A DNA stretch of 23,969 bases from the IMG/VR virus record IMGVR_UViG_3300017788_000168, positions 1-23,969 of that record, one strand, 5' to 3'. The notes under the pieces were generated by a model. It made no database searches, was not told the DNA's origin, and saw nothing but the letters and a program-made list of their open reading frames with translations. The position numbers were made by a program, and so were the translations under genes. Positions within the stretch are counted from its first letter, which is position 1; every line of letters starts with the position of its first letter. The DNA is from a virus. Shown here piece by piece: positions 1 to 23,724 of this stretch.

Positions 1-3000
1 CGTATGCGTTTTATGAGATTGTTGACCGTATCGAGTTCCAGGAACGTAATCATTTCTCCGCCCATGAACAGCACTCCGGGCCGACGATTCGTCGGTGGCG
101 ATAACACCGATGCATTTACTACACGTATCTGGGTATCTGTAATCGTCAATGGTTGAGCTAATGTGGTCGAATATGCTTCTGCGATACGATAGTAATTATG
201 ATCTTCGGCCATGTCATGGAAGATCCTATAGGCCAAGGGTTTTCCAGTGACGTCAAACCCCACTACACGGATCTCTTTGCCGGCTTGTGGGGCTTCTTCG
301 AATACTATCGTATTTCCAAAAAATACATAATCAATTCCGTTTGCTGCAGGCTGCCCACCCACTAAAATCACAGTGTTCAAGTCATTGAGCAGATTATTTG
401 TATAGACGAAATCCGTGGTAGACCCATTGGCTACGAATCTTTCATCATCGCCTGAACTCCAAGGAGTGATAGGTTTGGTGAAAACTTGCATGTTCAAGCT
501 GTCAAAGATCATGCCCGGAACCAGTTCTTCGGGTGCATGGCTGCTGTAGAGGTCTACATAAGCACCACCTGTGATTGTGATATCCTCGGGCCTGGTTCCA
601 AGCGCGATATCTTGATACCGACTAGAAATATGCGAGTCAATGAGAGCCGACACTGATCTCAATTCTTCATCTTGGCTGAATGGCAGACCTTGCACCCGTA
701 CCCCAGGATATGTGATACCTTTGATTACTTGGGAGGGATCTTGGCCTTCCCCGCCCTCAACTGGTTGATAATAGGCCACAGCACGATCAATGGCGTGACC
801 TGCTTCGTCGCCGTTGACTCGAGTGAACAGCCGATAGTCAAAGAATCTTTCTGTGACTATTGGGCTAACGAAATATAACAGCTCAATGGTGTTTTTTCCC
901 TGCACTAGGACGGCTGGATCTCTATAGGTTATTTCGTTCCCCGGTACCCATTCCTTGCCCTCCCAGCGCCCGCGTGTTGTTCTTGTCTTTGTTTCGCTTT
1001 GCAGTCTTATAGTACCACTGTCTTTTTCCTGTACCGAAACAGTGTTGTTGAAATCATTGATTCCCGAACCGCGCACACGCTGTCCGATCGCGATGTTATT
1101 GATATCACCAATGGGTGTCACTTTGCCACCAATGATCGCGCTCCAACTGTCGCTTTCGCTGTCGTAGATCGCTCCAGGCACATCTTCGGGAGAAACAGTG
1201 AATATCACATCGTTTTCAACGTTTACTTTGATTTGTAAACCCGGGGTAGGATAATCAATAAATTCAAGGGTCTTGAGATCTTCGGAAAATTCATATTGAG
1301 ACATTGGTTGTAGCTGATCTCCAAGATAGACCTGATACTCGATATTTTCTAGGTCGTTGAGATATACCCTGGCAGATTTATTGAGTTGATAGACCCGAGG
1401 TGTTTCGACCAAGAACGTTTCGTAGAGATCCTCACCCTCGTCACCAACATATCTTATAGATACTTCATCCTCCAATTGAGGATCTAGTAAGGTGATGGTG
1501 TTGTCTTCCATGTTGATGCTGTAGTCGATACCAAACACAGCTTCTATATTGTTGAGATTGATCACTGTGGATGGAGTAAGATCTGTGTTTTCTACCTGAA
1601 ATGTCGAGATAAGTTCAACATCAAATGTTTCGATCCCCGACAACTGTACCGGAACAACATAAATGTTTGGCTCGTTGATTTTATAGACGTCATTGAAATA
1701 AGAAACACGATCTGAAAAAATTTCAGAGTTGGCAGTCCATGCAGGTATTTGGGTGTCGTAGGCGATGCGATCTAACTTGATATTTGAATTCAATGACCGT
1801 ACTAGATTATACCCTGGTTGATTGTTGCCTGTGTGTACGTTTCTCATCAATGGATATGCAACAGCACCCGAACCGTTGCCATTGATCACTACGCGAGGAG
1901 TGGATGTATATCCACTGCCGGGATTGGTGATTACCACCGATGTCAGACCGTTAAAATCAATGGTCGCGATTGCTTTGGCTCCGCGTCCGCCACCGCCTTC
2001 AATGGTTATCTCTGGAATCACAGTATATCCCGATCCTGGATTTTCAATAATGATCCGATCAACCACTAGCTGATGAGATTGATTCCAAGCACGATATTCG
2101 GTGTTGGATAACAGATCTTCGTCGCTGTCTCGTTCACCATTGGGGGTACGATATTGATCTAGTATTTTGTCGTAATAGGCCGGAAGATCAAAGTCGCTGA
2201 CATTTCCGCTAACTACATCGATACCATCGTAGTTCAGTAGATATTCTCGTATCTGTGTGCGATAAGGCTTGACCTCATTGATGTAATCAATATAATAATC
2301 TTGGTTATCTCGAACGAAGCTGGGGTATTGATCAAGCTTTCGCAGTTTGTGGACGATATTTACAAAGCTGGTTTTAAATATCCAATCCACATGTTTTTGT
2401 TCAGTCAACAAATAGTTTACCATCACAAAGAACATGCGATTGAATTCCTGCTTGAATTCGCCTGCAAATATGTCCTTGCGGATTGATTCCAATATCTGTC
2501 TTATTTCAACACCAGGAGTTTTATCATATCTCACATTATCAAAATTTGACGAATCAAATCCCATTCCATCGTTGTTGATATCGTAGAGATTGGGTAAAAA
2601 TTGTATGGTACCGTTTTCCAACGCGACCATGAGCAACGAAAAATCATCCTGCACTCGATAAGTTACACCTTGCCCTTGTTGATCATATCTCACATCAATG
2701 ATATCACCGGGCCGTAAATTGATTGCCCCGATATCTTTTTCGTAATCCACGGTGTAAGTGATTTTTGTTGAAGGATCAAACCCATCGGCATACCAATCAC
2801 GATATTCCCAGTATAAATTGGTTTTATAAGATTGTATCCTCGACAACACAAATTGGCTACCGTTAAACCTCCAGACTGTCCAAAGTCCATCATTGGTAGA
2901 ATCATTTTCTATTAGAACTCGATAACCAACTTCGATTTCACTGGTTTCAATATACCCGAGCTCGTCTACCGTGGAAACCTTGCGATCATATCCCGAGGAA

Positions 3001-12000: not shown

Positions 12001-13355
12001 TCAAATCTTATTTTTAAACCATTGGTGAATTCCACTCCATTGGGGCTGGTGTAATTTTTTTCGTCTAGAATATCATTGTTGACGTCAATGACAAAATTAT
12101 CGGGGTCGACTATGCGTATTTCGCCGACAAATGACGGATCTCGGCTATCTTGGTAAAAAAGTCGATCCAGATTGGCTGTGATATTGGGAACTGTTTGGTA
12201 GATACCATCAAAGTCGGTGTAAAATTCTCTAGATGCATTTTCCTTACCACGCCGAACAAAAACTTTTTGACTTTTTTCAACTTGAGTCGACGGAGTTAAT
12301 TTAATGACATGGTCTCTTCCGCTGGGAATTAACTGTATTCTCCAAAGATTGCGCCTTGCTGTCACTGGAACGGTTTCAGAGACAATGACATCATAGGGGT
12401 ACACGTCAAAAATTTCATTGTTGGTCCAGAAGACATCGTCGATGTCTTCGTTGATGAATATTATAAACTTTCCATCTAAATCGGAAGGAGTGCGATAACC
12501 ATCAATGCCATCGGGATTACTTTTAAGGAATTGTCTTAGACTGTGATCCTGCATGTTTACATAACTGATATCAGTGGCTAAATCGGCCACTGCGGCCATA
12601 GTCATTGATGTAAACTTGTCTTGAGCGGATGCCTGTGGCACACGGAAAGTCACTGTGCCTTGATCTGTACCGTTGTTTAAAACTCCCAGCACATCTCTTG
12701 TTGAAATATTAGGTTGAGTTTTTTTCTTGCCCGACACACCCGGCTCGCTCTGTATCCAGAAACGATGCTCTGGGTGATCTATCTGAAACCTATATGTTCC
12801 GCCACGACTCAATATCATGACAGGATTAGATTCGATTCCTTTGCTGGAAAAATTAAATCCGCCAACAGATAGATTACGTGTGACCCGGTATTCTCCTTCG
12901 TTGTCAACTGAGCCAGCAAATACATTTACTGCCTGGGGACCATCGGGCATCCAATAATAGTTGTTGAAATTAATAAACTTGTCAAAATCAAAACAACCGT
13001 CAAATGTGTAAAATTCGTTGCGGAACAAACGATCGTGATTGTTGGCTATTCCACCATAGTATTCGATTTTTTGTAGTAGATCGGGATACGAAGAAAAGAA
13101 ATCAACACTGTTGGCGTAAACATCTTTGACAACAACGCAGGGCTCAAGTTGGTAATTCTGCCGCGAAGTCGAAGGTTCGCCGATGTAATTGTCTGATGGT
13201 TTAAATGTGGGTGTAACGCGACGGCCAATGTAGCCATTGACTTTCTTGAAATTTGGTTCGCTGATCAGCTGGTCGACTGTTGCGGCCAAGAATTTTTTGT
13301 TGGCATCGGTCCTGAAAATCTCAGGTAAAAAGTTCAAAGTTCTATTAGTGGCCAT
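1..13355 (-). CDS. Giant modular virion/baseplate protein, C-terminus beyond window (partial)
   Basis: The frame opens with ATG at 13355 and has no stop down to base 1, giving at least 4451 residues (about 500 kDa); the true end lies outside. The start is 7 bases after the gp6 stop, with no clear Shine-Dalgarno, so translation may be coupled. Visible segments: a conserved N-terminus (LPEIFRTDANKKFL; FNNYYWMPDGPQAV near residue 140); a cupredoxin-like sandwich (about 165-247); four CBM5/12-like motifs (592-767); a DWWNERYG/PYTGGNLLLW segment (1437-1472); a fifth CBM5/12-like motif (1940-1979); seven FG-GAP-type repeats (2353-3027); NEVKPYRTQIREYLL (3693-3707); two PGSGYT repeats (3773-3835); and FMGGEMITFLELDTVNN at the edge. 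To my knowledge, marine T4-like phages carry very large proteins of this kind next to gene 6. Its position matches T4 genes 7-10. A role as peripheral baseplate and adhesion protein is inference; no catalytic site was recognised. Confidence 0.85.
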   Translation of the reverse strand, partial: MATNRTLNFLPEIFRTDANKKFLAATVDQLISEPNFKKVNGYIGRRVTPTFKPSDNYIGEPSTSRQNYQLEPCVVVKDVYANSVDFFSSYPDLLQKIEYYGGIANNHDRLFRNEFYTFDGCFDFDKFINFNNYYWMPDGPQAVNVFAGSVDNEGEYRVTRNLSVGGFNFSSKGIESNPVMILSRGGTYRFQIDHPEHRFWIQSEPGVSGKKKTQPNISTRDVLGVLNNGTDQGTVTFRVPQASAQDKFTSMTMAAVADLATDISYVNMQDHSLRQFLKSNPDGIDGYRTPSDLDGKFIIFINEDIDDVFWTNNEIFDVYPYDVIVSETVPVTARRNLWRIQLIPSGRDHVIKLTPSTQVEKSQKVFVRRGKENASREFYTDFDGIYQTVPNITANLDRLFYQDSRDPSFVGEIRIVDPDNFVIDVNNDILDEKNYTSPNGVEFTNGLKIRFDNKVIPSDYRLKDFYVEGVGKSIRLIGANKLINPEPYAGDLETLDYLTINRGSSDLNAWSRSNRWFHIDVLKATAAYNKTIGLPNQQYRANRPIIEFDADLQLFNFGRQGLPPVDYLDFYVTDAFSQIEGNGKQYDALQHYVKDEVVVLENKVYRARIDLQQIPGNDNNWQNLYSLPIYSGTQAYRQDNVVRYLDRIYRALAVTSENLPTNTTYWEPIIWNRENIDEYDAEIEYQQFDAVYYNNEYYACISPNGALQISPDITTTWKKVNVFVDYSVGIADTILENQYAAWQGRLYRAVLDIKQDPRNNDLYWQSIIDIVDGKSVIFAGDEDPMVRNIVYRLSMEDIGNDEDYDENPIRMPHLTPSAFIVESNSTVIALEGLNTGLNFWYDGNQWKKGLQKSSVNQAPLFDVVDENNISFGNLTRYPNSTFGGSRIFSYKTGTGKTDTVLGFPLSYRNFNSVGDIEFSNDFDNSLMSFLDGTREKTIKVNGGYLLNYINRDEAQTRNIWIKAKEKSHQYQIFSHVFDGTTNYFEVDVSPNASQQTPFIKVFVNNELIKEYQYVYEVVGVRQAVRILSSLLTVGAIVDIMIYSDSTSELGHYEIPPNLDYNSQNADFEYLTLGQLKNHITKLVENTRIANQTENKFTRFRDVQFKNHGGTILQHASPSIYSNLFLIDNDVNFVDSIDLAAREYTKFKNKFLEAASKLTTVDSTRIPETVDEIIKTINAVKNSSFPWHYSDMVPYGDNRREYLDVVINPELRQFDLPMVFDDQKLSNRAVLVYVNNKQLVKDQDYYFPQDRTAVIISEEYPLEADDFIKIVDYLDTNGCYVPETPSKLGLCPKFVPGKLYDNTYRDPIFVIQGHDGSMIPSFEDYRDDLLVELETRIYNNIKLDYYKGIANIHDFIPGKFRDTGYSLAEFDRVLSRSFLKWAGSNQVDYTTNTNFVANDSWTWNYSKYRDTIDGGRIPGAWRAIFKYFYDTDRPNTHPWEMLGFSSRPDWWNERYGAAPYTGGNLLLWQDLAQGYIHAGPRQGYDQRYARSSLLSIIPVDEYGALRPPSQFAVSNFNSSDAGRAFSVGNQGPAESAWRRSSDYPFALQRTMALTQPAFYFGSLFDVKTYNRNSKLDQLVISNTLRRVTPGSIKIHGDVLDGQTQLTAGYLNWIRDYVKNLGRDPATVLRHRLDNLDVNLGYRAAGYTDKNYIKVLAEQSSPSSTNDSIILPDENYTVHLNKSSPLKKIIYSAVIVEKTNNGYTVSGYDVSNPYFTIIPSLANNNAYVIDVIKQRGVIYRDYQNKKVIVPYGFEFTSRQQVVDFLISYGRYLTGQGIKFTETESVLASKKDWVLSAKEFLHWSQQGWSNGNLIILSPIKDVLKVSTPLGVVDHVENTINGSKILDQQFSTIKNNQFTVVRSNNEFKISVIDDRSICFAELEVVQFEHVLIFDNSTVFNDIIYKPELGNRQFRLKLVGSKTNDWSGELNPPGFVYNASDVDPWLPGKDYKKGSIVNFKEQYYTALENIIAATEFNQAQWRLIERSAIKTGLLPNFAYNAQKFEDIYDIDNAPDDSDLLEYSAGLIGFRERTYLSDFSLDNVSQVKFYQGFIKDKGTRSSVDALTTAKFNNVTSGLDLYEEWALRVGEYGAAESAAQIEIVLNDTEFTNDPSTITLTDNAESAVRGTVSIKEKDLYRRTSQYKKDIFFNRSQRTDTSADIATAGFVNLEDISGTVFDIRNFSELDNLLPRIGKGFKLWVARDFDNDWNVYRISETDNNVSSAIYDLDDQISVTFDKPHELKVGDIFVIKNLDSLIDGFYQVAYVTDLVRVSAKIYKNQSEIKKIRSFSGNGVYLVAKSMRTDSSAKINQMSPLNGWLVGDCVWADNIDHDGHWGVYEKTDSWKYQVELPVEASDLIGGDRFGHAVKINSQRDLIVVSSPESGEGNIKTFVKLTSGEFKQSSTFRPTLSLDTAGFGGSIDLVDYRVAVGASASKNNQGRVFVYNFRTEKEKFDLQVLFAPDANTGDQFGHSVSLSQDLQWLYVGAPGKDTVYVYHYDTSLTELGTHVLTTEPGQTDYVLDFSVATADSIKVTSEFGLPDLFVGDGVTDTFTLSAGLVGRRLQVIVNNQLMSASDYTIDGDTLTLNSVPDIGNVIVARINQPVLLQPNVDYTVTEDGELSLSKDPGLLSIEVQQAYHYKLVDELVGTAGSQFGRTVKTNRDGSVVVVGAPNKTITNGEITYTNTGAGYIYTRRIEEQSLKANRSTYLPSSVTMPFVDLFVNGVLLHSAADYTLNNNEIVLLGSYEAGQTLTISTSQFDLLQEISSPDLVDQGNFGFSLDMDHDAKSIYIGAPNYYDSVYSQGKVYRFTMKSKYFGTSVSQIENPVISAGSTIYVNRVPVTFTAATDSGDTTAKSMAIDINRLPGITADVDQDGRLVISTVSKVNKDLQLTPAGDDALEQIAFDAYVLDQEILEPDFNEGSFGSNIVVDSQGETVSITGKNSSLTQAITFDGGLGFAGTTFDIGTTLFNKVVDGSGAVYLFELINDGQSGIDNTGSLIFANKLSLREVYPGDEFGFSVGLQKDSLVVSSPGFDPLPLPDQYDLKVDNLDELSWIGVNALTIGTRVLVVSDISNRGSWSIWTYNGAQSTDFRTNFIRDAVGVIKNTGSVHLYTNPSSKKIWDLKRKQEPVVDLDSVNRLLIYNRDRNTIIANLDYIDPVKGKILGIAEQDIDFKTELDPAIYTNGTSEVVIDQGMRWGEQQVGMIWWNLSKVRYLDYEQDDLIYRTKNWGAIFPGSEIEICEWVSSSVPPEQYATRGGSGIPKYNNQAYVVDTVIDSQSGILNPRYYFWVTGKQDVSVSRKRNSCAAIADIIENPNLQGIPYVGILKSNALALYGINDYLTGNSVILQIDYANAPNSNIMHTEFELVQENRRESEIPNKIVNKMVDSLAGIDRIGNVVPDPTLKDNERVGISYRPRQNMFRDRARALRSVIDFVNRIFLAYPVVRQFNTNGFFGQDPVPTSSGYDRKVSTVDELGYIETSEIEVGYRVLIENDSTNDGLWTVWRFNGSQFVLSRIQSYKTNLYWEYRDWYADGFDPSTKITYTVDYEKDIGAINLRPGDIIDVRYDQQGQGVTYRVQDDFSLLMVALENGTIQFLPNLYDINNDGMGFDSSNFDNVRYDKTPGVEIRQILESIRKDIFAGEFKQEFNRMFFVMVNYLLTEQKHVDWIFKTSFVNIVHKLRKLDQYPSFVRDNQDYYIDYINEVKPYRTQIREYLLNYDGIDVVSGNVSDFDLPAYYDKILDQYRTPNGERDSDEDLLSNTEYRAWNQSHQLVVDRIIIENPGSGYTVIPEITIEGGGGRGAKAIATIDFNGLTSVVITNPGSGYTSTPRVVINGNGSGAVAYPLMRNVHTGNNQPGYNLVRSLNSNIKLDRIAYDTQIPAWTANSEIFSDRVSYFNDVYKINEPNIYVVPVQLSGIETFDVELISTFQVENTDLTPSTVINLNNIEAVFGIDYSINMEDNTITLLDPQLEDEVSIRYVGDEGEDLYETFLVETPRVYQLNKSARVYLNDLENIEYQVYLGDQLQPMSQYEFSEDLKTLEFIDYPTPGLQIKVNVENDVIFTVSPEDVPGAIYDSESDSWSAIIGGKVTPIGDINNIAIGQRVRGSGINDFNNTVSVQEKDSGTIRLQSETKTRTTRGRWEGKEWVPGNEITYRDPAVLVQGKNTIELLYFVSPIVTERFFDYRLFTRVNGDEAGHAIDRAVAYYQPVEGGEGQDPSQVIKGITYPGVRVQGLPFSQDEELRSVSALIDSHISSRYQDIALGTRPEDITITGGAYVDLYSSHAPEELVPGMIFDSLNMQVFTKPITPWSSGDDERFVANGSTTDFVYTNNLLNDLNTVILVGGQPAANGIDYVFFGNTIVFEEAPQAGKEIRVVGFDVTGKPLAYRIFHDMAEDHNYYRIAEAYSTTLAQPLTITDTQIRVVNASVLSPPTNRRPGVLFMGGEMITFLELDTVNNLIKRI
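1851..2039 (-). repeat. Two tandem PGSGYT repeats in the giant protein
   Basis: Residues 3773-3835 hold PGSGYTVIPEITIEGGGGRG followed by a linker (AKAIATIDFNGLTSVVITN) and a second unit, PGSGYTSTPRVVINGNGSGA. The unit is about 39 residues, with the pattern NPGSGYT-x-x-P-x-(V/I)-x-I-x-G-x-G. Such units are common as short glycine-rich beta repeats in phage and bacterial surface proteins. They follow the NEVKPYRTQIREYLL segment. Confidence 0.75.
4275..6299 (-). repeat. Seven FG-GAP-type repeats (predicted beta-propeller) in the giant protein
   Basis: Seven segments carry the FG-GAP blade pattern (G-x-FG-x-S-V-x-L-x(4-6)-(L/I)-x-VGAP ... G-x-V-Y-x-(F/Y)). They begin at 6299 (GDRFGHAVKI ... IVVSSPESG), 6134 (AGFGGSIDL ... 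VAVGASASKNNQGRVFVYN), 5978 (GDQFGHSVSL ... LYVGAPGKDTVYVYHY), 5429 (GSQFGRTVKT ... VVVGAPNK), 5060 (GNFGFSLDM ... IYIGAPNYYD), 4619 (GSFGSNIVV, later GAVYLFEL) and 4346 (GDEFGFSVGL ... LVVSSPGFDP). The first three are spaced at 55 and 52 codons and the later ones at about 90-185, with other beta modules inserted. Seven is the number of FG-GAP repeats in integrin-alpha propellers. The propeller itself is inference. Confidence 0.7.
7419..7538 (-). other. Isolated CBM5/12-like motif in the giant protein
   Basis: Residues 1940-1979 begin WLPGKDYKKGSIVNFKEQYY, continue TALENIIAATEFNQAQ and close with WRLI. This is a closer fit to the CBM5/12 pattern than the tandem copies: W-x(4)-DY-x-x-G-x-x-V-x-(F/Y)-x-x-x-Y-x-A ... 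F-x(3)-W. It stands alone, far from the tandem group, directly before a segment rich in short beta strands. Assignment is by pattern only. Confidence 0.6.
11055..11582 (-). repeat. Four tandem CBM5/12-like motifs in the giant protein
   Basis: Four consecutive segments share the pattern (D/E)-x-V-x(4-6)-(R/K/E)-x-Y-(R/Y)-A-x(n)-W: residues 592-624 (VKDEVVVLENKVYRARIDL ... NNWQNL), 636-669 (YRQDNVVRYLDRIYRAL ... TYWEPI), 685-720 (FDAVYYNNEYYACISP ... TTWKKV) and 736-767 (YAAWQGRLYRAVL ... LYWQSI). This matches the Y..G..V.Y.g..Y.A......P....W signature of small carbohydrate-binding modules of the CBM5/12 (ChtBD3-like) type, which use exposed aromatic residues. The glycine after the first aromatic is mostly D or F here, so these are divergent. 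Glycan binding at the host surface is inference. Confidence 0.55.
12615..12861 (-). other. Cupredoxin-like beta-sandwich in the giant protein
   Basis: Residues about 165-247 of the giant protein read GGFNFSSKGIESNPVMILSR, then GGTYRFQIDHPEHRFWI, then GVLNNGTDQGTVTFRVPQA. This follows the NP-(x)-L-x-RG-x-TY-x-F ... H-x-FWI ... GV-x-NNGTD-x-GT-x-TF-x-VP pattern of cupredoxin-like domains that are widespread in marine secreted and phage proteins. The usual C-terminal metal-ligand loop (Cys/His/Met after the VP strand) is not seen, so it is probably a structural sandwich and not a copper site. The fold assignment is from motif memory only. Confidence 0.5.
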
Positions 13356-13362
13356 TTTTATT

Positions 13363-16300
13363 TCACTGGTTTAAAATATTTAATCCAGCTGAAATCTGAT
13401 TGAGTTGCGAAGCTGTGATCGACGAAATGATTTCCACATCGTCCACTGTGGCTGCTGAAACTATGATCTCGTCGGGTTCGGCATTTATCTGATAAAGGCT
13501 ACCAAACGCCACGTTATTGTCGGCAGCAACAATGACTACCGATGCGATATCTGGGCTGAGGCGGTTGTGCAGATAGGCACTGAGTTCTGAGAAATAAAAC
13601 GTTTCGCCAAAATCCCAGTTCGCTATATCAAAGTAAGCATTAACCGCTGCAATCAATGATGTTTTGATGTCGCTGTCACTGATGATGAGATTGGGATTCT
13701 TGACCACTTTAAACTTGGCTCGCAGGGCCGAATCGGCCCTTGATCCAAAGATAGGTTTAAATTTAGCCGAGTTATAAATGATGGTATCACTCATGGCTTT
13801 GAAATTTTCAAGGCTGCTGAATTCCAGTTTTAAACTTTCACTGGTGGGTTCGCTGGGATTGACAACTGTGTTTGACGAGTCTTTGATCCATGCTAGATAG
13901 TCAGTGGCATAGGATTTTGTCAATATAAAAAGATCCACGATGTTATTGGGGCTTGGATCAATCCTTCGTTGATTTGGGCTGTTATGCCGATATTGGAAAT
14001 TTAGATCTGCTCTTCCAACTCGAGCTCGATAGTTAGATACTTCCTCGAGCACCGCCGATGAGCGATAAAATTTATTCTCTAGATTGGCGTAAAATATCTG
14101 GCCACTGGGGTATTGACTTCTCGAAGACAGTATCTCATCACGAGTGGGCAGCCCAGCAATCACAGAATAAGCCGGCACAGGACGATAGTCCTCGAACAAA
14201 TCCGAAGACGTGGATGCTACAAAAAACACAAATTTTTCTGCTTGGTTGACTTTGGGCGCCACTATTAATTCAAAAAGATCGGGGTTATCGGGCACACCGT
14301 CACTGTCACTGTCAGGGAAAGTCAATAGTATTTTACTGTTGTTGACATAACCATCTGACTCGACAATGCTTTTATAAACGTACCAAGATAGATCATTGGT
14401 CAATGCACGAGAAGAATCGGGTTCAGTATTAAATCTCAACACCTTGATAAAATCATTAATGGTTCGCCCAGTACGAGAATCAAAGACTTTGACTTTTTCA
14501 TCAAAATAAAATTTCGTATCAACAAGGCTTTCAAAATAGTAATCAAGTCCACGGTGTTCTACTATGTACTGAGTTCCGTCAAAGGTAAATTTAACCAGCC
14601 AGCTAGAATCCAATGCGCGGCCAGTTGTGTCGCCGGCGTTGATTTCCGAATATGATACCCCACCAAGATCATTGTTTTCTATTATGTGCCACGTGGTGGT
14701 ATTGACATCATATCTTAGGCCAAAGTTCTTGTAGGTGCGAACATAGTCGGCGATGATTTTAATGAAATTGTCTGAAGATATTTGATCTGTCAGATTGTTT
14801 TTAAAAGCTGGAATGATTTCGTCGGGTATAGCACCGCTGGGAACCAATTGATTCAATGACAAAGAATTATCTTGTTGAGTGCGAACAATCGCAGCATAGA
14901 TATAACGACGATCGGTTTCTCTATGTGGTTCTCCGGTAATTATTTCTCCTGACCCTGTGAAATATTTTCCGGCGCCGGCTGCGAACCGTATCATAGCACC
15001 ATTGATTAAGTATTTCAATGTGGTCGACGAGTTTTCACCAATGGGGGCAATGGTATTGTTGTTGGAAAAGCGCAGGCGACCCGTGTTCAAATTGGTAGCC
15101 GTGCCTGTTGATTCCCACACTAGCCCCGACAGCGCAGGCCTTGTTATTTTAGAATAATGATAGTGTTGCAGGCTCTTTCCATTTACCAATGGTTTTATCT
15201 GATTGTAGATCACAGTAAAGATTTCATTGGTGGTCTGGAATGAAAAACGAAAATCTTTGATATATTCGTCGCGATAGATGATTCCGTCACTGGCATAGAT
15301 GTTAGTTGAACTGTACTTGCCAGTGACATCCAACACATCCAGGAATCGACTTACCCCCGAACTGGTTCTGTTTACTGCCTTGGCTTTGAGCACGGTACTG
15401 AATGCGGTGTAGGGCAATATGTTATAGTCCTCACCAGTGATCATCCTATTTTGCGTGTAGTATTGCTGAGGTGCTTTGGTGCGTATCTCGTCGAGAGTTT
15501 CTCGCGCAGTGGCATTGGCCACTGTGTAGTTAAGGCTGGCCCGCACAGTCAATGTTTCGGCTCGACCCAAGCGGCTCACATACGTGATGGGAATAGAGAT
15601 GTTTTGCATCTCATCGGGCGTGATCTTGTAAGTGAGCCCGTTGCTTTGTCGATAGTAGAATCGAAACGATCCTCGTGGTGAATTAGCGAATGCACCATCA
15701 CCGAACACTAGATCAACTTGATCCCCTACTCGGCTATTGATTTGGTAAAGATTACGATCAGAGTTTTTATTATAGGCTATGTTAATGCCGGCCACAGCAG
15801 GTACCTTGGACCAGTTCTCGGTCACTGCTCCCTGTGAGCTTAACGCATACAGCCAAGTATCGGTATTGTTGATGTTGTCAAAATTGATGTTGATCACTCT
15901 ATTGGGCAAGGATTCATTGACGGTGAAATCAACACTGTTGAGTGATCCTTGCTTGAAGTAGACAAAATAACCGGTGTTGTTGGAGCTGTTTCCAAGGTTA
16001 TCGTTGCGATAAAGCAAGTTGAACTTGACTGTGGGTTTTGGTTCAGCTTCGTAGATATAGGTTTCTCCACCGGTGGTCGCTGACACTGCTTCAAATGTTG
16101 TGTTGGCGCCTTCAACAGTTGAGCTGAAACGATACACCGGCACAGTGCCCGGCTCAACACTGACTGAATATTCATCGGTGCGTATGTTATTGATGACCTG
16201 GCTGTTGCCAGGTTTTCCAACAATCTGGCTGTTGACCAGTGAAGCGTTCAGAACTGTGTTGAACTGTTCTTGCCAGTTGTCATTGGTGGAATCATTCCAG

Positions 16301-16728
16301 GAAATAATGAGGTTAGAGAGATCTGTGCCGTTGCTGTCAGTGACTGATTCAGTGGTTGAGACCGAATCAATTTTCAGCAGGCCCGAAGCAGGTATATTGC
16401 GCTTGGGGCTATAGTTGATCATGCGTGCAAGTTTCAGCACCGAATCTCTACGCTCGGCTGTGTCGATGAAATTTTCACGTGCGTTTAGATCCGTGCGGAA
16501 GGCCAGACTCTGCCCCAAGAAAGCGATCAAATCAATCAAAGCAACGTACTCTGAGCTTTCTAAGAAGTCGTTGAAATCTTCGGGGTAGTAGATGCGCAAG
16601 TAATCGATCATGGTCTTGCGCAGAGTTTCAAAGTCGTAGCTTTGGAAATCAGCTTCTTTGAAGGTCTGATAGATCTTGGTCCAATCTTGTTGGACTAATA
16701 AATTTGTTTGTCTTGTTGTCAGGGCCAT
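13363..16728 (-). CDS. 6: Baseplate wedge protein gp6
   Basis: A 1121-residue protein of the T4 gp6 family, a structural subunit that forms the inner ring of the baseplate and joins neighbouring wedges. The N-terminus (QDWTKIYQTFKEADFQSYDF, ETLRKTMIDYLRIYYPEDF, YVALIDLIAFLGQSLAFRTD, NARENFIDTAERRDSVLKLA) is the strongly conserved gp6 start. The C-terminus (about 1030-1090: DIANWDFGETFYFSELSAYL) is typical of gp6-type wedge proteins of marine T4-like phages. T4 gp6 is about 660 residues, so this one is much longer, with extra beta-rich sequence in the middle. Residues 806-817 hold an aspartate-rich loop of the thrombospondin type-3 kind. The gene lies directly after gp25, as expected for baseplate clusters of this group, and ends 7 bases before the giant gene. 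Confidence 0.93.
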   Translation of the reverse strand: MALTTRQTNLLVQQDWTKIYQTFKEADFQSYDFETLRKTMIDYLRIYYPEDFNDFLESSEYVALIDLIAFLGQSLAFRTDLNARENFIDTAERRDSVLKLARMINYSPKRNIPASGLLKIDSVSTTESVTDSNGTDLSNLIISWNDSTNDNWQEQFNTVLNASLVNSQIVGKPGNSQVINNIRTDEYSVSVEPGTVPVYRFSSTVEGANTTFEAVSATTGGETYIYEAEPKPTVKFNLLYRNDNLGNSSNNTGYFVYFKQGSLNSVDFTVNESLPNRVININFDNINNTDTWLYALSSQGAVTENWSKVPAVAGINIAYNKNSDRNLYQINSRVGDQVDLVFGDGAFANSPRGSFRFYYRQSNGLTYKITPDEMQNISIPITYVSRLGRAETLTVRASLNYTVANATARETLDEIRTKAPQQYYTQNRMITGEDYNILPYTAFSTVLKAKAVNRTSSGVSRFLDVLDVTGKYSSTNIYASDGIIYRDEYIKDFRFSFQTTNEIFTVIYNQIKPLVNGKSLQHYHYSKITRPALSGLVWESTGTATNLNTGRLRFSNNNTIAPIGENSSTTLKYLINGAMIRFAAGAGKYFTGSGEIITGEPHRETDRRYIYAAIVRTQQDNSLSLNQLVPSGAIPDEIIPAFKNNLTDQISSDNFIKIIADYVRTYKNFGLRYDVNTTTWHIIENNDLGGVSYSEINAGDTTGRALDSSWLVKFTFDGTQYIVEHRGLDYYFESLVDTKFYFDEKVKVFDSRTGRTINDFIKVLRFNTEPDSSRALTNDLSWYVYKSIVESDGYVNNSKILLTFPDSDSDGVPDNPDLFELIVAPKVNQAEKFVFFVASTSSDLFEDYRPVPAYSVIAGLPTRDEILSSRSQYPSGQIFYANLENKFYRSSAVLEEVSNYRARVGRADLNFQYRHNSPNQRRIDPSPNNIVDLFILTKSYATDYLAWIKDSSNTVVNPSEPTSESLKLEFSSLENFKAMSDTIIYNSAKFKPIFGSRADSALRAKFKVVKNPNLIISDSDIKTSLIAAVNAYFDIANWDFGETFYFSELSAYLHNRLSPDIASVVIVAADNNVAFGSLYQINAEPDEIIVSAATVDDVEIISSITASQLNQISAGLNILNQ

Positions 16729-16775: not shown

Positions 16776-17153
16776 TTATGCCATGGTCATTTTTTGACTT
16801 TCACGATCGAATTTCAATCGTAAAATATTGCGTTGATCGGTGGTTACATAGCGTAAATCTATCAGCACCTGGATACCTTGTTCGAATTCGTCAATGGTCA
16901 CGCGATCCACCGCTAATCGTGGGTCATAAGATACTATTTTTTTGACATCGTCGATGATGACTTGGCGCACTTCCTGGGTCAATGGCTCAAACAATGTGTT
17001 CCATATTATGGAACCAAAGTTTGGGTTCATGAGTTTTTCCCCTTTGCGTATATGAAAGTGATTGATCAAGTCTTGGCGTACCAGATCAAATTCCGTGACA
17101 CGGAATTTTTTATTGCGGTTTTGTGTGCTGAATCCACGATAAAGTATTGACAT
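16776..17153 (-). CDS. 25: Baseplate wedge protein gp25 (lysozyme-like fold family)
   Basis: 125 residues, close to T4 gp25 (132). This is the most conserved baseplate component of contractile tails and helps start sheath assembly (family GPW_gp25). The hallmark block RKGEKLMNPNFGSIIWNTLF (residues about 37-56) is present: the family's R-x-x-x-PxFG-x-x-(I/L)W ... FEP. It is followed by the EVRQVIIDDVKKIVSYDPRL helix and the VTIDEF strand. Despite the family name, no lysozyme activity is expected. The start is 11 bases after the gp5 stop. No Shine-Dalgarno is visible in front of it, so translation is probably coupled to gp5. Confidence 0.96.
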   Translation of the reverse strand: MSILYRGFSTQNRNKKFRVTEFDLVRQDLINHFHIRKGEKLMNPNFGSIIWNTLFEPLTQEVRQVIIDDVKKIVSYDPRLAVDRVTIDEFEQGIQVLIDLRYVTTDQRNILRLKFDRESQKMTMA

Positions 17154-17164: not shown

Positions 17165-19288
17165 TTAAGCCGCTGTAGAACCAGTGGCCAGCGTGCTCAC
17201 AGCATATCTGGCCTTGTTGTAATAGGCTGCTCCAGTGGTTCCGTTGGCATCAGCGCCACCGGCAGTGAACCGCCATTGTTTGGCGCCGCCGGCGCCCAAT
17301 AGGTGAGCAACTTGTATCATACCAGCCACAGTTTCTTTGTTATCGCCGGTTTTGATTGCACCAATCCTGACCATAGTTTTATAATTGCTTTGCATCAGAG
17401 AATACATCACGCTCTCCTGCACACTCTTGCTGTTGAAGTAATCGTCTAGGCTATTGATACCGTCTTTGCCGGTCCAGCCACCTTCTTGATTGACTGCTCC
17501 GTTGCGATATTGTTTAAAATAATCTTTCTTGATGTAGCCTTGGTCACTGAGTACTGCCGCACCAGTTTGATATCTTCCCACGTAATTGAGGCTGTTTTTG
17601 GCCTTATAGTTCCAGGCCGACTCGCTATAGGCGATCTGCGCCATGAGGCACTTGGTTTCGTATTGACTGAGTGGACCCACTCCACCGGGAGGATTAGGGG
17701 CATCGGCCTTGTTTAACCACATGGGATCTAACGCACCCGAGACCGGTTGCCCTTGTGCTGAATCTGGTCCCGGGTCGCCACTGGGTTCTCCCGGTGGTAT
17801 TTCTACCTTGGCCGGAGGAGGGCCTGTGTTGATTTCTTCCCCGCCTCGTGTGGGTTGCCCTTGTGGACTACCTTTTTGTCGAGGCCAAGGCTCATGACTG
17901 GGAGCGACCTTGACGATCGATGACAATTGTCCCGGAGCAGTTTGCCAAGGATGTTCGTCGCTTTCTCTTAATGTGTCATTGTGTTGATTGAGTTTGATAT
18001 TGCCGGGATCTTTGACTCGAGTACCCGGATATGAGTTGATATCTGTGCGGCTTCCTGACAGCACCATTGGCCCTTGTGTGGTAAATTCGCCTTTGCTGTC
18101 GGCGCTGATAAAAAGATTGCCGCCGGAACCTATTTCAACTTTGCCTCCGTAGGCGAGAAAATTATCTGTGGCCTTGAGTGTTATCTTGGAAGAATCTTGT
18201 ATGATAGCTCCATCGGCGCGGACATTGAAGTTTCGTTTGGCATGGAAATTTATATCTCCGTCGCTGTGTAAGTTAAAATCACCGTCGGTACGTAGGTTTA
18301 TACCGCCGGCGGCATAGGCCGTAATCTGCCCTGACCCAGCAAATTCCAACCAAACAGATCCGTCGCTGTTGGCTAGATAAATGATGCGTTCGGTGTCATT
18401 CATTAGCAGCTGGTGACCACTGGCTGTGCGCAGGCGCATGAGTTGATTGCGGCCAGATTCAATCTCGCCATCGTCCATGACCAAGCTGTGGCCGCCGACT
18501 CTTGCTCGTACAGCATATTTAGATTCATCAATCTCGCCAGATGTCAGCAACAGTCCGTAGTTGGGATCCAGGGCCGGATCTTGGTCGGGCACCGGTCGAC
18601 CAGGAGTAGAAATACCAAATACCTGGCTGGGAGTTTCTCGTTGGCTAGAGCTGGTTATCGCACCTCGCACCGGATCTCGATCAAGTCCTTGCTTGATCAA
18701 GATTTCTGCCTGTGGTTCGTGTATGGCTTTTTTGTTGTTCAAGAACCCATCAGAAATATTAGAGGGTTCGTTTTCGTTGAATTCAGCTGAGGGCAAGGTA
18801 GGAGTTTGTTTCTGAGCCAGGGCGTTTTTGACAATGGTGCTTTTTACTCTTGACGTGTCAAACGGGCCGTCGGTGCCCAAGGCCGGCAACATAGTATGAC
18901 TGAGATTTTTATTCACACAAGCGAACCAATAGCCGCGTCCCGGATCACCGTTGACAAATATGCAAAGCACTTCGTTGCCAACATCGGGTGGTACCATCCA
19001 CATACCATAGGTATGATGTACTTTTTCAAATTCGGTGAGCTTGGTTGCTTCAGGTTGTGTAGTAGCACCAAAAAATGGACTAGCGTAACTCACAGTCCTC
19101 CAGTTTTGCACATTGGTTTCGTCGCCGCCAAGATCGGGTATGTAGACTTGCAAACGGCCGGATTTTGTGGGGTCTAGGTTGTTCTTGATCACCCCGATAA
19201 ATGGTCCCGGATCTAGTTTGACGCCAGTGGCAGAATCTTTGTTGGCCCACTTGGGTATTCTGTTGCCTAATCTGCGTTCGGTGCTCAT
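17165..19288 (-). CDS. 5: Baseplate hub spike gp5 with C-terminal lytic domain
   Basis: 707 residues. Three parts are visible. Residues about 27-115 form the gp5 OB-fold (PFIGVIKNNLDPTKSGRLQV, YIPDLGGDE, NWRTVSYASPFFGAT). Residues about 260-425 form a repetitive beta-helix needle with short strand repeats (INLRTDGDFNLHSDGDINFH, AKRNFNVRADG), as in gp5 and VgrG spikes. After a Pro/Gly-rich linker (about 480-515) comes a domain of about 185 residues with AQIAYSESAWNY, VGRYQTGAAVLSDQGYI and AGMIQVAHLLGAGGAKQW. These resemble lytic transglycosylase/muramidase motifs, with the Glu in SES as candidate catalytic residue. In T4 gp5 the lysozyme lies between the OB-fold and the needle; here it follows the needle. 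The protein would puncture the envelope and cut peptidoglycan. AGGA at 19294-19297, 5 bases before ATG, supports the start. Confidence 0.9.
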   Translation of the reverse strand: MSTERRLGNRIPKWANKDSATGVKLDPGPFIGVIKNNLDPTKSGRLQVYIPDLGGDETNVQNWRTVSYASPFFGATTQPEATKLTEFEKVHHTYGMWMVPPDVGNEVLCIFVNGDPGRGYWFACVNKNLSHTMLPALGTDGPFDTSRVKSTIVKNALAQKQTPTLPSAEFNENEPSNISDGFLNNKKAIHEPQAEILIKQGLDRDPVRGAITSSSQRETPSQVFGISTPGRPVPDQDPALDPNYGLLLTSGEIDESKYAVRARVGGHSLVMDDGEIESGRNQLMRLRTASGHQLLMNDTERIIYLANSDGSVWLEFAGSGQITAYAAGGINLRTDGDFNLHSDGDINFHAKRNFNVRADGAIIQDSSKITLKATDNFLAYGGKVEIGSGGNLFISADSKGEFTTQGPMVLSGSRTDINSYPGTRVKDPGNIKLNQHNDTLRESDEHPWQTAPGQLSSIVKVAPSHEPWPRQKGSPQGQPTRGGEEINTGPPPAKVEIPPGEPSGDPGPDSAQGQPVSGALDPMWLNKADAPNPPGGVGPLSQYETKCLMAQIAYSESAWNYKAKNSLNYVGRYQTGAAVLSDQGYIKKDYFKQYRNGAVNQEGGWTGKDGINSLDDYFNSKSVQESVMYSLMQSNYKTMVRIGAIKTGDNKETVAGMIQVAHLLGAGGAKQWRFTAGGADANGTTGAAYYNKARYAVSTLATGSTAA

Positions 19289-19297: not shown

Positions 19298-22200
19298 TTA
19301 TTCGGCTGCTTTGTCGGCTTCCGCTTCCTTGGCGGCCAGCTGAGATTTTAGATTTGTGACCTGGGCCTGCTGCGTCGCCAATCGATTTTGCAATTCTTGA
19401 CGATACGTCTGATCATAGCTGCCAGGATTTCTGTTAATTATATCCAGTTTTCTTTGCGTGGATCTTACACTGGCTTCGGCATCTCCTAACTCAGTGTCAA
19501 TGCGTGCCGCTTCACTCTCAAGAGCACGCACTTTTTGTTCTTGGGTTTGTTGTTGCTGATTTTCAAACTGTGCCGCTGTTTTTGCTGGTTGTGGTTCAGG
19601 TGATGTCGCTTGTTGTTCTTCCACATCGCCGATGTCTTCTTCTACATCCGAATCGGCAATTTCTTCGAGATCCTCGTCGTCTTCATTGGTTTCTTCCGAC
19701 TCTGTGGCTGTGTCGGGATCGTAGGGATCATCTTCTTCACCATACGATGATGCGCCTGAATCATCATCTTCGACTGTTTCGTCTTCAGTGGATTCATCTA
19801 GGCCGGTCACTCCCGACGAATCATCGATGTCGCTGGATTCTGGTACATCTTGATCTCTATCCGCAGTCGCTGCAGTCGAGTCATCTTGTCTGTCGTCAGC
19901 AACCACGCCGGGTTTTAGGATATCTTCAAAAATCCTAACCATATTTAATACCTGTTCGAACTTGCCGCTGCGGAATTCTGAATCCACAGTCAACACTCGA
20001 TATAGTCCGGAGAACTTGCTTTCAATGTACTTTCCGTCTTGTCTTAGCAGACCTGTGTTGTCGTCGACATCAACTGGTGTGCGAAAATTTACACGCACGA
20101 AAATTTCTCCGCGATCCATGACCAAACTGCCTACCCCCGGAATCAGTTGTTCGTTGGTTAGTTTTTCATAATCTTTGTCTGCGGGATTTATCAACACATC
20201 GTCTTGTTTGATAAAATGTGGATCACCAATGATCTTGATACGCAGATTCAACATATCGCCTCGAGCATTGCTGTAGATACTGTTTTGTATGCTGGAAGCT
20301 GTTTTTGTTGCCGAGTCTCGGTTGCCATCTAGTACCGCGCTGGCACCAGGATTGTCTGGTATGGGAATGTAAGTAGATTGCTGTATTGATCCTGGATTGC
20401 TGGGATTTTGTATATCATTGACTTTCCCTGTGTCTGGCGAAGATGCGGCTCCAGAAATAGTTTGATAACTGGCGCGGTTTACTTCAACAGCAGTATAAAA
20501 CAATGCATCAAAGTCAATGCTGAAATCCAGTATGTCTCGATTGTATCCGGTATAAAGATAATTGTATTGCTTGACAGCGCCATTGGGCAAGGATTGTGGG
20601 CCCATTGGGTGTTTGCTGTTGTAGACTATCATCTTTTTGATATGATATGTTATGGTCTTTGACCAACGATTGGTTTTGGCATCAAATTGATTGAGTTGCA
20701 CATCTGGAACTACTTTGTACCAAAGCAAAGGTTGGCCGCGCGAATTGGCGATGTCTTGAGCACTTTTGCTGGCAGGATCTGATACCTGATCTAGCACATA
20801 TCTACTGTTGCGCATGACCATGTCAACCAATTTCAACACTGACGTACCGGCGCTGATGCTAAATGCCGAAGTGTTGAAATCGGGGCCACTGGCATTGGGT
20901 GAGTTGATCACTCGCGCCTTTGCTGTGCCCGGATCAGGCACTGGAGTTTTACTTGGATCGTTGCGATCGGGCATCACGATCAATGATTTACCAATTTCTT
21001 CGTCAACTGCAAATCTTATCTGGTCGGTGTATTTTCTTGCTCCAGTGACCAATTGCTGTTGGTACCAAGCATTTACTCCTGCGGTATAGCTGGTTGCTTT
21101 GACACGAGCTCCTTTTTCCAATTCAATCAACCGTGCTTCATAGATTTTCAACACCGCAGGGTCTGATTTTACTACGTCAAGTTTTATGGCTTCTCGAAAG
21201 GCAGCTATTTCAGCGGTGTTGGTTATTGTTAAGGCTTCGCCTTCGTCGAAAAAATCTTTGACCGTAGCTGCATCAATTTCAAGATTGATGGGTGTCGACG
21301 CCGTGGTTTCTTGGAGTGCTTGATGATTGAATGGAATGGCTTTTAATGCATATTCGGTACCTTTGGTACCCACCTTCATCTTCAACTCGATTATTTTTAT
21401 CGGAAGACGTTTTGTTATACCCGGAATGGGATTTGGCATGCCGCCGTCGTCGGTTGACCCAAAGAAATCAATTTGCAAAAGATAAGGGAGCTCGAGATAA
21501 TTCCGACATCGTGGTTTCACCGTTTCAGCCACGTCAATGATCCTGTCAAGCAAAGTGAGACCATAAGGTTCAATCAAGTTAAACGTGATGTCAATGGCGT
21601 TGCTGGATTTGCTTTTTTGATTGAGTCCCACCACCGTGGTGAGTCGCAGCCCATCAAAGAAAAAGTCGTCGCGGAATGCTGGATGCCTATTGGTATCATT
21701 GAATCTGCCGGCTCCGCCAATCAAGCACTGACCAACTCGATCCCATGTTTCTACCCCTTTTACTGCCCGGTTGTAGTCTTCGCTGGACAGCACAAATAAG
21801 CTGACATTATAGGTATAAGATGCATAATCATGTAAAGGATTATCCATTGGCACATAGACGGGAATTGAAGAAGCTTGGTCTGCGACTTCGTCGCCGGCGT
21901 AGACTGGATTTCCATACTTGTCAAATCCTATGACCTGATCGACTCCGGTTTCGTCCTCGGTTTCATCAGATTCGTAAATGGGTCTTCCATCTTCGTCAAA
22001 TCCCACCACAGAATCGGTACCGGTTTCGTCCTCGGTTTCGTCAGAGTCGGGATCTTCGTCTTCGTTTTCAAGATTGTCTTGCTCTTCTTCGTCGAGCTCT
22101 TCTTCGTCGAAATCTTCTTCGTCGAAATCTTCTTCGTCGAGCTCTTCTTCGTCGAAATCTTCTTCGTCGGAGTCTGGGGATTCCTCGTCGAAATCTTCGT

Positions 22201-22549
22201 CTGAGCTGGTAGATTCTTCTTCGTTGTTTACCGCTGTTTCTGCGGTTTGACTGGCCGCTGCGGTATTTTCTTGAGACGTTGGTTGAGCCGTTGGTTGGCC
22301 GTCTGCGATGGCGTCGGCTTCTTTTTCTTTGGAGGCCAATCTTGTGTTAAGAGAAGCGACTTCTGCCTCTTGCTTGGCCAATCGATTCTGTAACTCTTGT
22401 CTAAGACCAGGATCAGCACCGGGAGTTTCTGCAAATAATGCCAGTTTTCTTTTTGTTGACCTAACGGCCGCGTTGGCATCTTCAAGCTCGGTGTTTATCT
22501 GATTGATTTCCGTTTCAACAGCACGGAGAGACTTTTCACTGGTGCTCAT
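19298..22549 (-). CDS. Baseplate hub protein (gp27-like role) with duplicated terminal coiled coils
   Basis: 1083 residues. The core (about 225-900) includes YTYNVSLFVLSSEDYNRA, ITFNLIEPYGLTLLDRI, YLLQIDFFGSTDDGG, LRIKIIGDPHFIKQDDV and RGEIFVRVNFRTPVD. The last two recall hub/connector proteins of contractile tails (gp27/XkdQ-like). With its place just before gp5 this suggests the hub platform that carries the spike; that assignment is inference. Both ends are unusual. Residues about 7-83 and 1006-1083 are homologous coiled coils (AVRSTKRKL versus SVRSTQRKL; RQELQNRLA in both). Each connects to the core through a strongly acidic, Ser/Asp/Glu-rich linker (about 110-220 and 905-985). The N-terminal linker holds DEEDF-type repeats and a 25-residue tandem duplication. 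T4 gp27 is about 390 residues and lacks these extensions. The ATG lies 3 bases after the gp53 stop. Confidence 0.8.
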   Translation of the reverse strand: MSTSEKSLRAVETEINQINTELEDANAAVRSTKRKLALFAETPGADPGLRQELQNRLAKQEAEVASLNTRLASKEKEADAIADGQPTAQPTSQENTAAASQTAETAVNNEEESTSSDEDFDEESPDSDEEDFDEEELDEEDFDEEDFDEEELDEEEQDNLENEDEDPDSDETEDETGTDSVVGFDEDGRPIYESDETEDETGVDQVIGFDKYGNPVYAGDEVADQASSIPVYVPMDNPLHDYASYTYNVSLFVLSSEDYNRAVKGVETWDRVGQCLIGGAGRFNDTNRHPAFRDDFFFDGLRLTTVVGLNQKSKSSNAIDITFNLIEPYGLTLLDRIIDVAETVKPRCRNYLELPYLLQIDFFGSTDDGGMPNPIPGITKRLPIKIIELKMKVGTKGTEYALKAIPFNHQALQETTASTPINLEIDAATVKDFFDEGEALTITNTAEIAAFREAIKLDVVKSDPAVLKIYEARLIELEKGARVKATSYTAGVNAWYQQQLVTGARKYTDQIRFAVDEEIGKSLIVMPDRNDPSKTPVPDPGTAKARVINSPNASGPDFNTSAFSISAGTSVLKLVDMVMRNSRYVLDQVSDPASKSAQDIANSRGQPLLWYKVVPDVQLNQFDAKTNRWSKTITYHIKKMIVYNSKHPMGPQSLPNGAVKQYNYLYTGYNRDILDFSIDFDALFYTAVEVNRASYQTISGAASSPDTGKVNDIQNPSNPGSIQQSTYIPIPDNPGASAVLDGNRDSATKTASSIQNSIYSNARGDMLNLRIKIIGDPHFIKQDDVLINPADKDYEKLTNEQLIPGVGSLVMDRGEIFVRVNFRTPVDVDDNTGLLRQDGKYIESKFSGLYRVLTVDSEFRSGKFEQVLNMVRIFEDILKPGVVADDRQDDSTAATADRDQDVPESSDIDDSSGVTGLDESTEDETVEDDDSGASSYGEEDDPYDPDTATESEETNEDDEDLEEIADSDVEEDIGDVEEQQATSPEPQPAKTAAQFENQQQQTQEQKVRALESEAARIDTELGDAEASVRSTQRKLDIINRNPGSYDQTYRQELQNRLATQQAQVTNLKSQLAAKEAEADKAAE
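19301..19534 (-). repeat. C-terminal copy of the hub coiled-coil module
   Basis: Encodes about residues 1006-1083 of the hub protein (KVRALESEAARIDTELGDAE ... RQELQNRLATQQAQV ... LAAKEAEADKAAE). It aligns with the N-terminal module (22302-22531) at roughly 40 of about 77 residues with a one-residue gap. The DNA still matches in places: aatcgatt-tg-aa-tcttg around 19379-19397 recurs around 22380-22398. Confidence 0.85.
21896..22045 (-). repeat. Two tandem 75-bp units in the hub N-terminal linker
   Basis: Adjacent units at 21971-22045 and 21896-21970 encode 25 residues each: SDETEDETGTDSVVGFDEDG-RPIYE and SDETEDETGVDQVIGFDKYG-NPVYA, with 17 of 25 identical. The shared SDETEDETG start and GFD-x-x-G-x-P-x-Y end suggest a short acidic segment followed by a small beta-hairpin-like piece. 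Confidence 0.9.
22080..22200 (-). repeat. Low-complexity acidic repeats (DEEDF/DEEEL) in the hub linker
   Basis: Reiterated tcttcttcgtcga units on the plus strand encode DFDEEELDEEDFDEEDF-like runs on the minus strand. The near-exact short units could change in number by slippage or unequal recombination, so copy number may vary between relatives. Confidence 0.85.
22302..22531 (-). repeat. N-terminal copy of the hub coiled-coil module
   Basis: Encodes about residues 7-83 (SLRAVETEINQINTELEDAN ... RQELQNRLAKQEAEV ... LASKEKEADAIAD). Heptad-like spacing of L, A, V and I and many charged residues indicate a coiled coil. It is paralogous to the module at the other end of the same protein (19301-19534). 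Confidence 0.85.
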
Positions 22550-22552: not shown

Positions 22553-22852
22553 TTACAGCCCTAGATCGGCGATCAGTGTTTCTTTTTTGGGAATGTATAT
22601 GGCGACTCCGGGACGGAAATCAAACACTGGATCTTTTATGGTGTTGGGATTACGCACAGCAAACACCCACCACAGCGAAGCATCACCATAGAGATCATAG
22701 GCCAACAAATCGGGACGATACTGGTAGATACGATCGATCTGATATCTCACGTCAGACGCCAGCTTGCGGAAATTACGCATCTGCATTATGTCCAGGAAAT
22801 TACCGTAGTTTTTTGTTTCGTAATAGGGACTGCTTTTATTGTAGGAAGCCAT
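22553..22852 (-). CDS. 53: Baseplate wedge protein gp53
   Basis: 99 residues; T4 gp53 is 196, so this is the short form usual in marine relatives. The family block is clear: YQYRPDLLAYDLYGDASLWW (residues about 43-62), then VFAVRNPNTIKDPVFDFRPG and VAIYIPKKETL. This LysM-like stretch is typical of gp53, which fastens the wedges around the hub during baseplate assembly. The ATG overlaps the stop of the upstream gene by one base (TAATG). A strong GGGGAGG sits at 22862-22868, 9 bases ahead. The hub gene follows 3 bases after its stop. Confidence 0.9.
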   Translation of the reverse strand: MASYNKSSPYYETKNYGNFLDIMQMRNFRKLASDVRYQIDRIYQYRPDLLAYDLYGDASLWWVFAVRNPNTIKDPVFDFRPGVAIYIPKKETLIADLGL

Positions 22853-23724
22853 TATAGGAAACCTCCCCGCCCACTCAACAATCTTCCACGAGCAAACTCG
22901 TCAAGATTGAATTGTGTGGCTTTGTTTCTGCTGACAACCGGTTGTAGGGTCACAGCAATGGTACTGTTTGTAGGGACCCGAGTGGATCCCCCATCGATCA
23001 TGGTCTCAATGTAGTCAACGTCGTTGGGTAGAGTGTGAGAGAAGTTAGTTATCACACAGCTCACATGCGGAAAGTAATGATCTCCATAACCATCTAAGAA
23101 TACCAATGGTGGTGGGTTGCCGGCTCGCTCACCTTGTCCAAACCACATCTTGGTACAAGCACGGAAAAAGTAAACAGCAGCCATGAGATATTTGGCTTCG
23201 GCGTCATTCTGCACACTGAAGTCACCTGATATAGTAATGCCCTGTATTTCTGAACCTTCATAAAAGTAAGCGTCATAATTACTATGTGTGAGTTTAGATG
23301 TACCGTACCTGGCCGTGTGCTGTACCTGTATTGATGGAGTATAGGGAAATATCACGCCACTTTGCCCAGTTCCAGTAAACAGTGGGGCCATGATACCGTT
23401 GTCGGAGCTGTTGTAAAAATAATCGCTTTGATCGGCAATGCTGACACGCACTCTCCAATCTGATGCTCCAGCGGAGCCATAGCTGTTGAATCCGATGGTG
23501 GTTGAAGCTGGTCCTCGAGAGGAAAGACCACCTTTGAGCAGGCCAGAAATACTGCGCCGAGCATTGCTGGGATCAAATAGATTCAGAGCCGAATCAACGA
23601 TTCCCGGTAGCTTGGGTTTGGCAGGGGCATCCGTGACTCCTGGTATGAAATCTTCGGTGCCAAAGGTAGGCGTACTGGCTGTTCCACCTTTGAAAAATCC
23701 AGTGACCGAATCAAGTATTCCCAT
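22852..23724 (-). CDS. 48: gp48-like baseplate/tail-tube cap protein
   Basis: 290 residues; T4 gp48 is about 360. The N-terminus is Gly/Ser/Pro-rich. Then come ASDWRVRVSIAD (about 98-109), IFPYTPSIQVQHTARYG, SKLTHSNYDAYFYEGSEIQG, ISGDFSVQNDAEAKYLMAAV and YFFRACTKMWFGQGERAGNP. A tube-like beta-barrel pattern is plausible. Cyanophage proteins with this SNY-x(3)-FYEGSEI block are, as I recall, annotated as gp48, the tail-tube-associated baseplate protein that starts tube polymerisation. The neighbours fit. gp54, a gp48 paralogue, is the main alternative. It is the first gene of the operon, with a late promoter 30 bases ahead and AGGA at 23737-23740 (12 bases from ATG, rather far). Confidence 0.75.
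   Translation of the reverse strand: MGILDSVTGFFKGGTASTPTFGTEDFIPGVTDAPAKPKLPGIVDSALNLFDPSNARRSISGLLKGGLSSRGPASTTIGFNSYGSAGASDWRVRVSIADQSDYFYNSSDNGIMAPLFTGTGQSGVIFPYTPSIQVQHTARYGTSKLTHSNYDAYFYEGSEIQGITISGDFSVQNDAEAKYLMAAVYFFRACTKMWFGQGERAGNPPPLVFLDGYGDHYFPHVSCVITNFSHTLPNDVDYIETMIDGGSTRVPTNSTIAVTLQPVVSRNKATQFNLDEFARGRLLSGRGGFL
22862..22868 (-). promoter_or_regulatory. Shine-Dalgarno of gp53
   Basis: GGGGAGG on the minus strand, 9 bases before the gp53 ATG, inside the last codons of the gp48-like gene. It decides the start at 22852. Confidence 0.65.

Follow-up and report, generated by a model that had tools for sequence, protein, structure and literature searches.

Baseplate hubs with additional domains

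Baseplate hubs that bear functional domains at each end have precedents. The nearest one in the literature is the hub gp15 of cyanophage A-1(L) (8kea), with wall hydrolases at both ends. Its barrel core is flanked on either side by added domains (lysozyme, endoglucanase and peptidase), and the activity of two of them has been tested in vitro (PMC10966104). The six-fold gp16 and the wedge proteins of A-1(L) dock onto this three-fold hub, and LysM domains in baseplates can be structural rather than peptidoglycan-binding, as in T4 gp53 and A-1(L) gp16 (PMC10966104). Homologues of known origin of the hub described here come from the jumbo phages PA5oct and Atu_ph07, where a virion structural protein (674 and 663 aa) shares the core and the place in the baseplate cluster. 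Unlike the hub described here, these proteins begin close to the core and lack arms, and the bare-core hub of PA5oct is a virion protein by MS.

The stretch of DNA analysed (the window) is a 23,969-bp fragment, in which the hub ORF (19298-22549, minus strand, 22549→19298) encodes 1083 aa. In an AlphaFold2 model built on an alignment of 82 sequences, the core is mostly well predicted from about residue 231, and this core (residues 231-880; 19910..21859, minus strand) is conserved in about 90 loci. Foldseek matched it to PDB entries with probability 1.0 and E 6e-9 to 1e-6, including T4 gp27 (1k28_D), the A-1(L) hub (8kea_A) and hubs of PVC, AFP, VgrG, Mu, P1 and R2 pyocin. TM-scores normalised by target are mostly 0.3-0.5, pointing to a remote relation, and a profile search of PDB sequences with the hub gave no match, so that its identity rests on fold comparison. 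The predicted model thereby confirms a gp27/VgrG-type hub fold, as the initial annotation had proposed for the core, and the protein would form a trimeric ring at the tail tip.

Similarity to the T4 gp27/VgrG-type hubs (PDB 1k28, 2z6b, 3cdd, 6u5h, 7b5h, 8gra) concerns both this fold and the gene order beside a gp5-like spike, gp25 and gp6. In contrast to these hubs, the window hub has two long disordered arms with coil tips, a sequence beyond HMM detection in the PDB and a core of about 650 aa, compared to about 360 residues in the matched T4 chain. The initial annotation had remarked that no such arrangement was known in T4 gp27, and to our knowledge gp27 indeed has no such arms. Like A-1(L) gp15, the window hub combines a barrel core with extra domains on its N- and C-terminal sides, here predicted hairpin tips. 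The end domains of A-1(L), however, are hydrolases modelled in a cryo-EM structure, whereas those of the window are paralogous coil hairpins on acidic linkers. Pfam found no hydrolase in the window hub, and hydrolase-type tips occur in its relatives L103 and L113. The hub matches PHROG 11190 ("virion structural protein"), and its structural neighbours in BFVD are annotated as tail-lysozyme and peptidase M15B.

Baseplate genes adjoin the hub on the same strand. These are a gp5-like spike with a C-terminal lysozyme domain (17165..19288, minus strand; PHROG "baseplate hub subunit and tail lysozyme", E 2e-41 and 1e-35; Pfam Phage_base_V), gp25 (16776-17153), a gp6-like gene (13363-16728) and a gp53-like baseplate wedge protein of 99 aa (22553..22852, minus strand; PHROG 7145, Pfam Phage_gp53), in which Pfam reported no LysM. 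A further gene (22852-23724) encodes a protein that PHROG lists as "virion structural protein". Beside the gp6-like gene lies an open frame (window 3-13355, minus strand) that is cut by the record end and is at least 4451 residues long. The source is a contractile-tailed phage, probably of the jumbo type.

Paralogous coiled-coil hairpins at both ends of the hub

Both ends of the hub are predicted to fold into α-helical hairpins (helices 2-40/47-83 and 992-1040/1047-1082, pLDDT ~95), which define an N-terminal tip (residues 3-84; 22298..22543, minus strand) and a C-terminal tip (residues 1002-1083; 19301..19546, minus strand). The N coil (residues 3-83) and the C coil (residues 1002-1083) are identical at 44 of 81 aligned positions with a single 1-residue gap and share RQELQNRLA. 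Their Smith-Waterman score of 202 compares with 34±6 for full shuffles and with 39±7 (maximum 74, n=2000) for shuffles preserving the heptad register (z = 22). The similarity is therefore not that of generic coiled coils, and the identity continues through the non-helical loop between the helices. The paralogy proposed in the initial annotation is thus borne out, and what it had named as speaking against it, coiled-coil similarity without a continuous alignment, is not what the alignment and the shuffles reveal. At the DNA level the coils are identical at 145 of 243 positions and use the same codon at half of the identical residues, which indicates that the duplication is not recent and that silent sites had time to drift.

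The initial annotation had also asked whether the coil module occurs alone. It was found neither in other proteins of the window record and the four nearest records nor, by single-sequence search, in any other protein across IMG/VR, and phage records gave one weak match (E 0.9). In Pfam, the isolated coils matched only unrelated coils, and weakly so. Frames of ~590 aa on the opposite strand of related loci (L009/L010:15170-16942 and L007:13973-15742, both minus, in reverse-complement coordinates) match the N coil weakly (E 0.003-0.006), probably as generic coils.

The coils are joined to the core by linkers that are acidic and disordered, as had been described from the sequence. The N-terminal linker (residues 85-230; 21860..22297, minus strand) contains 43% D+E with a net charge of -61, and the C-terminal linker (residues 881-1001; 19547..19909, minus strand) contains 41% D+E with a net charge of -42 over residues 881-990. 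Both have mostly pLDDT <50, except for short helices at residues 93-103, 154-164 and 960-966. Such acidity is confined to some members of the family, whose median is 13-14% D+E. A 15-bp tandem repeat of 5.8 copies lies in the acid stretch of the N linker (window 22083-22169), where L001 and L002 are shorter.

Three short linker motifs recur across the family while the tips change. Motif N1, TAAASQTAETAVNN (residues 96-109; 22223..22264, minus strand), overlaps the predicted helix 93-103 and has the family consensus AASxQTAADAV. Motif N2, LDEEEQDNLENEDE (residues 152-165; 22055..22096, minus strand), contains the predicted helix 154-164 and has the consensus LSDxEQxNLxN. Motif C, DLEEIADSDVEEDIGDVEEQQA (residues 960-981; 19607..19672, minus strand), corresponds to DLAxVAxxAPTxDITDxxEP. 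Their information contents are 11.8 bits against 9.0-9.8 in shuffled arms for N1, 13.0 against 9.1-9.8 for N2 and 20.5 against 11-12 for motif C, with shuffles that ignore kinship among the hubs.

Exchange of arm tips within the hub family

About 90 further hubs were collected from IMG/VR, of which 76 non-redundant ones were used for statistics; a search of genome contigs with two peptide patterns gave no relatives. Across these relatives the core is conserved and both ends vary, with arms of 31 to 321 residues at the N end and 37 to 363 at the C end (76 non-redundant hubs). Tips comprise helical hairpins, beta modules, LysM (L014 and L040 at the N end, L078 at the C end), tail lysozyme PF18013 (L113, L115) and an endolysin-like domain at the N end of L103 (PHROG "endolysin", E 2e-26). 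Those recognised by Pfam at E < 1e-4 are LysM or tail lysozyme only. L053, L080, L067, L113 and L078 thus share the core and arm layout of the window but differ in what the arms carry, namely one N hairpin (L053, L080), a beta-alpha module at both ends (L067), tail lysozyme (L113) and LysM (L078).

The LysM at the N end of L014 (residues 3-57) and L040 looks circularly permuted, with Pfam profile positions 1-23 at residues 35-57 and residues 3-30 resembling the second half of the LysM in the C tip of L078. The C arms of several hubs (L023 C end, L107, L111) share a stretch of beta type resembling GVTxDPxxGxYxYKG, which precedes a helical tip in L107 and L111.

Closely related hubs differ in their tips. 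L022 and L023, with cores 93% identical, have the N arm and C linker in common and differ in the C tip. In L065 and L067 (cores 84% identical) both tips differ and the linkers are largely conserved. L093 and L114 (cores 86% identical) likewise differ in both tips, and their outer arm halves are 16-17% identical compared to 51-54% for the inner halves. Judged from these sequence comparisons, hub arm tips are replaced as units, so that the tip is an exchangeable cassette. The arms of the window hub belong to this family of swappable tips, a feature that the initial annotation missed, as it did the bare-core hubs and the earlier hubs that bear domains at each end.

Matched ends are not the rule in this family. 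Paralogy of the N and C tips that is detectable in sequence is restricted to the clade of the window, L001 and L002, where the coils of L001 and L002 also beat register-preserving shuffles. High N/C scores in L078, L106, L110 and others were rejected, as they could be traced to linkers, to stretches of low complexity or to coil similarity in patches. The near-symmetry emphasized in the initial annotation is therefore not supported as a design rule, since matched tips are absent in most relatives and helical N and C tips are weakly associated among 76 non-redundant relatives (odds ratio about 2, p 0.04-0.13, kinship ignored). A second case may be L067, in which beta-strands followed by a helix are predicted at both ends and the ends are weakly similar in sequence (p 0.004), while in its relative L065 sequence propensity points to mostly helical tips on both sides. 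Homologue searches with the L067 end modules yielded too few relatives for a profile. As this beta-α module is unrelated to the coils, accepting the L067 pair implies at least two origins of matched ends.

Relatives with one copy of the coil, which had been suggested as a check, exist in part. The N end of L053 and L080 carries a single hairpin resembling the window C coil (0 of 2000 register shuffles as good), and these hubs have little or no predicted helical C tip. A comparison of L003/L004 for a shortened C coil gave a borderline result (p 0.02-0.04). Within the window clade, loop types at the coil turn show a mosaic distribution by position, which would fit exchange between N and C coils in these three sequences, or may reflect ancestral sharing followed by replacement. 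The tip loop of L001 N and that of L002 C are alike at 35 of 45 DNA positions vs 55 of 99 in the helix (p 0.015, one comparison), and the comparison between the L001 N and C tips was not significant (p 0.14). As far as sequences can tell, the best reading for the window lineage is that the coil tip at one end of the hub gave rise, by copying, to that at the other.

Lysozyme domains on gp5 or on the hub

Searches with the window gp5 found the C-terminal lysozyme region on gp5 or in the next frame at every locus with a complete gp5 save L103, L113 and L115, a comparison that leaves out L028 (gp5 frame cut by the contig end) and L036 (no gp5 found). In L103, L113 and L115, where gp5 has 404 aa, a search with the lysozyme domain of the window gp5 found no gp5-type lysozyme, and these are the loci with a lysozyme-type domain at the hub N end (L113: PF18013, E 4e-28). 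Apparently, either protein of the tail tip can carry the wall enzyme. The three cores are 64-98% identical to one another, and the hub lysozyme thus represents one or few events. At three other loci the lysozyme region is held by a separate frame directly after a shorter gp5 (L092:11845-12618, L095:6960-7736, L098:6242-7072).

Possible roles of the hub arms

We favor a reading, with a probability of about 0.5, in which six flexible arms of the hub trimer carry exchangeable modules that engage the cell envelope, one coil tip having been copied to the other end in the lineage of the window. The conserved gp27/VgrG-type core would bear a long disordered arm at each terminus, six in the presumed trimer, and each arm would consist of short conserved linker motifs followed by a folded tip as an exchangeable cassette. 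In the window lineage both tips would be paralogous hairpins derived by copying the tip of one end to the other. The arms would hang beside the gp5 spike and carry their tips to the envelope as the phage penetrates. There, lysozyme tips would act as cutters and LysM tips as binders, with a ligand in the envelope as the probable target of the coil tips. The data directly show, besides the predicted fold, that the coils are paralogues, that tips are exchanged while linker motifs are conserved, and that a lysozyme sits on the hub where none was found on gp5. That the arms would reach the envelope is suggested by the lysozyme tips, which make sense only if they touch the wall, and from the A-1(L) hub with its hydrolases on both sides. 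Against this reading, LysM in baseplates can be structural, and the hub lysozymes may reflect the few events mentioned above.

The main rival is a tether to another virion protein. Here, the hairpins and motifs would dock on a wedge protein, the tape measure or a tube initiator as assembly or anchoring devices, and the arms would never meet the cell. This would account for the linker motifs, whose conservation suggests a conserved virion partner, and the coils at both ends of a trimer would provide six copies matching a six-fold baseplate, comparable to the docking of gp16 and wedge proteins on the three-fold hub of A-1(L) (PMC10966104). Yet tip replacement on an unchanged core and linkers would be unusual for a fixed interface inside the virion, lysozyme tips must reach the wall, matching tips are absent in most relatives, and PA5oct and Atu_ph07 do without tips. 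A tether is therefore a serious alternative, though the less probable one.

Alternatively, the N and C coils could pair within a chain or between neighbouring subunits, so that looped arms grip the hub or hold back the spike until the tail contracts. Copies of one self-associating fold would be the easiest route to such a clamp, and the excess similarity of the L001 N and L002 C loops, as well as the joint change of both tips between L065 and L067, would agree with it. However, each coil helix shows a single hydrophobic stripe and 17-24% strong hydrophobics, a pattern that fits a helix packed against its partner within the hairpin, and the comparison within the same phage, L001 N against L001 C, lacks significance. 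Many hubs carry only one helical tip, helical tips at the two ends are weakly associated, L053 and L080 have a C-coil-like hairpin at the N end with little or no predicted helical C tip, and L022 and L023 differ in one tip only. Single stripes, weak co-occurrence and one-sided changes weaken coil pairing, which the initial annotation had considered, and leave it an unlikely reason for the symmetry. Finally, coils occur in many phage proteins and the isolated coils draw weak, unrelated Pfam matches, but the register-preserving shuffle (at most 74 in 2000 shuffles, compared to the observed 202), the identity through the non-helical loop and the same result in L001 and L002 refute a generic resemblance or convergence with no shared origin, which has a negligible chance of being correct.

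What is new here is that the arm tips of a gp27-type hub are exchangeable and that, in the present hub, a single coil tip is doubled onto both ends. Host-range studies focus mainly on tail fibres and receptor-binding proteins. If the arms engage the envelope as favored above, they could perhaps, as a tentative extension, constitute a second exchangeable set of infection modules in jumbo-type phages besides the tail fibres, in which the six tethered tips of each tail, exchanged as cassettes on motif-bearing disordered linkers and copied between termini, would set how the spike crosses the envelope of a given host. L022/L023 and L065/L067 represent natural tip replacements for testing the role of the arms. 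Swappable, envelope-directed tips on hub arms would be a separate determinant of penetration that could be found by comparative genomics.
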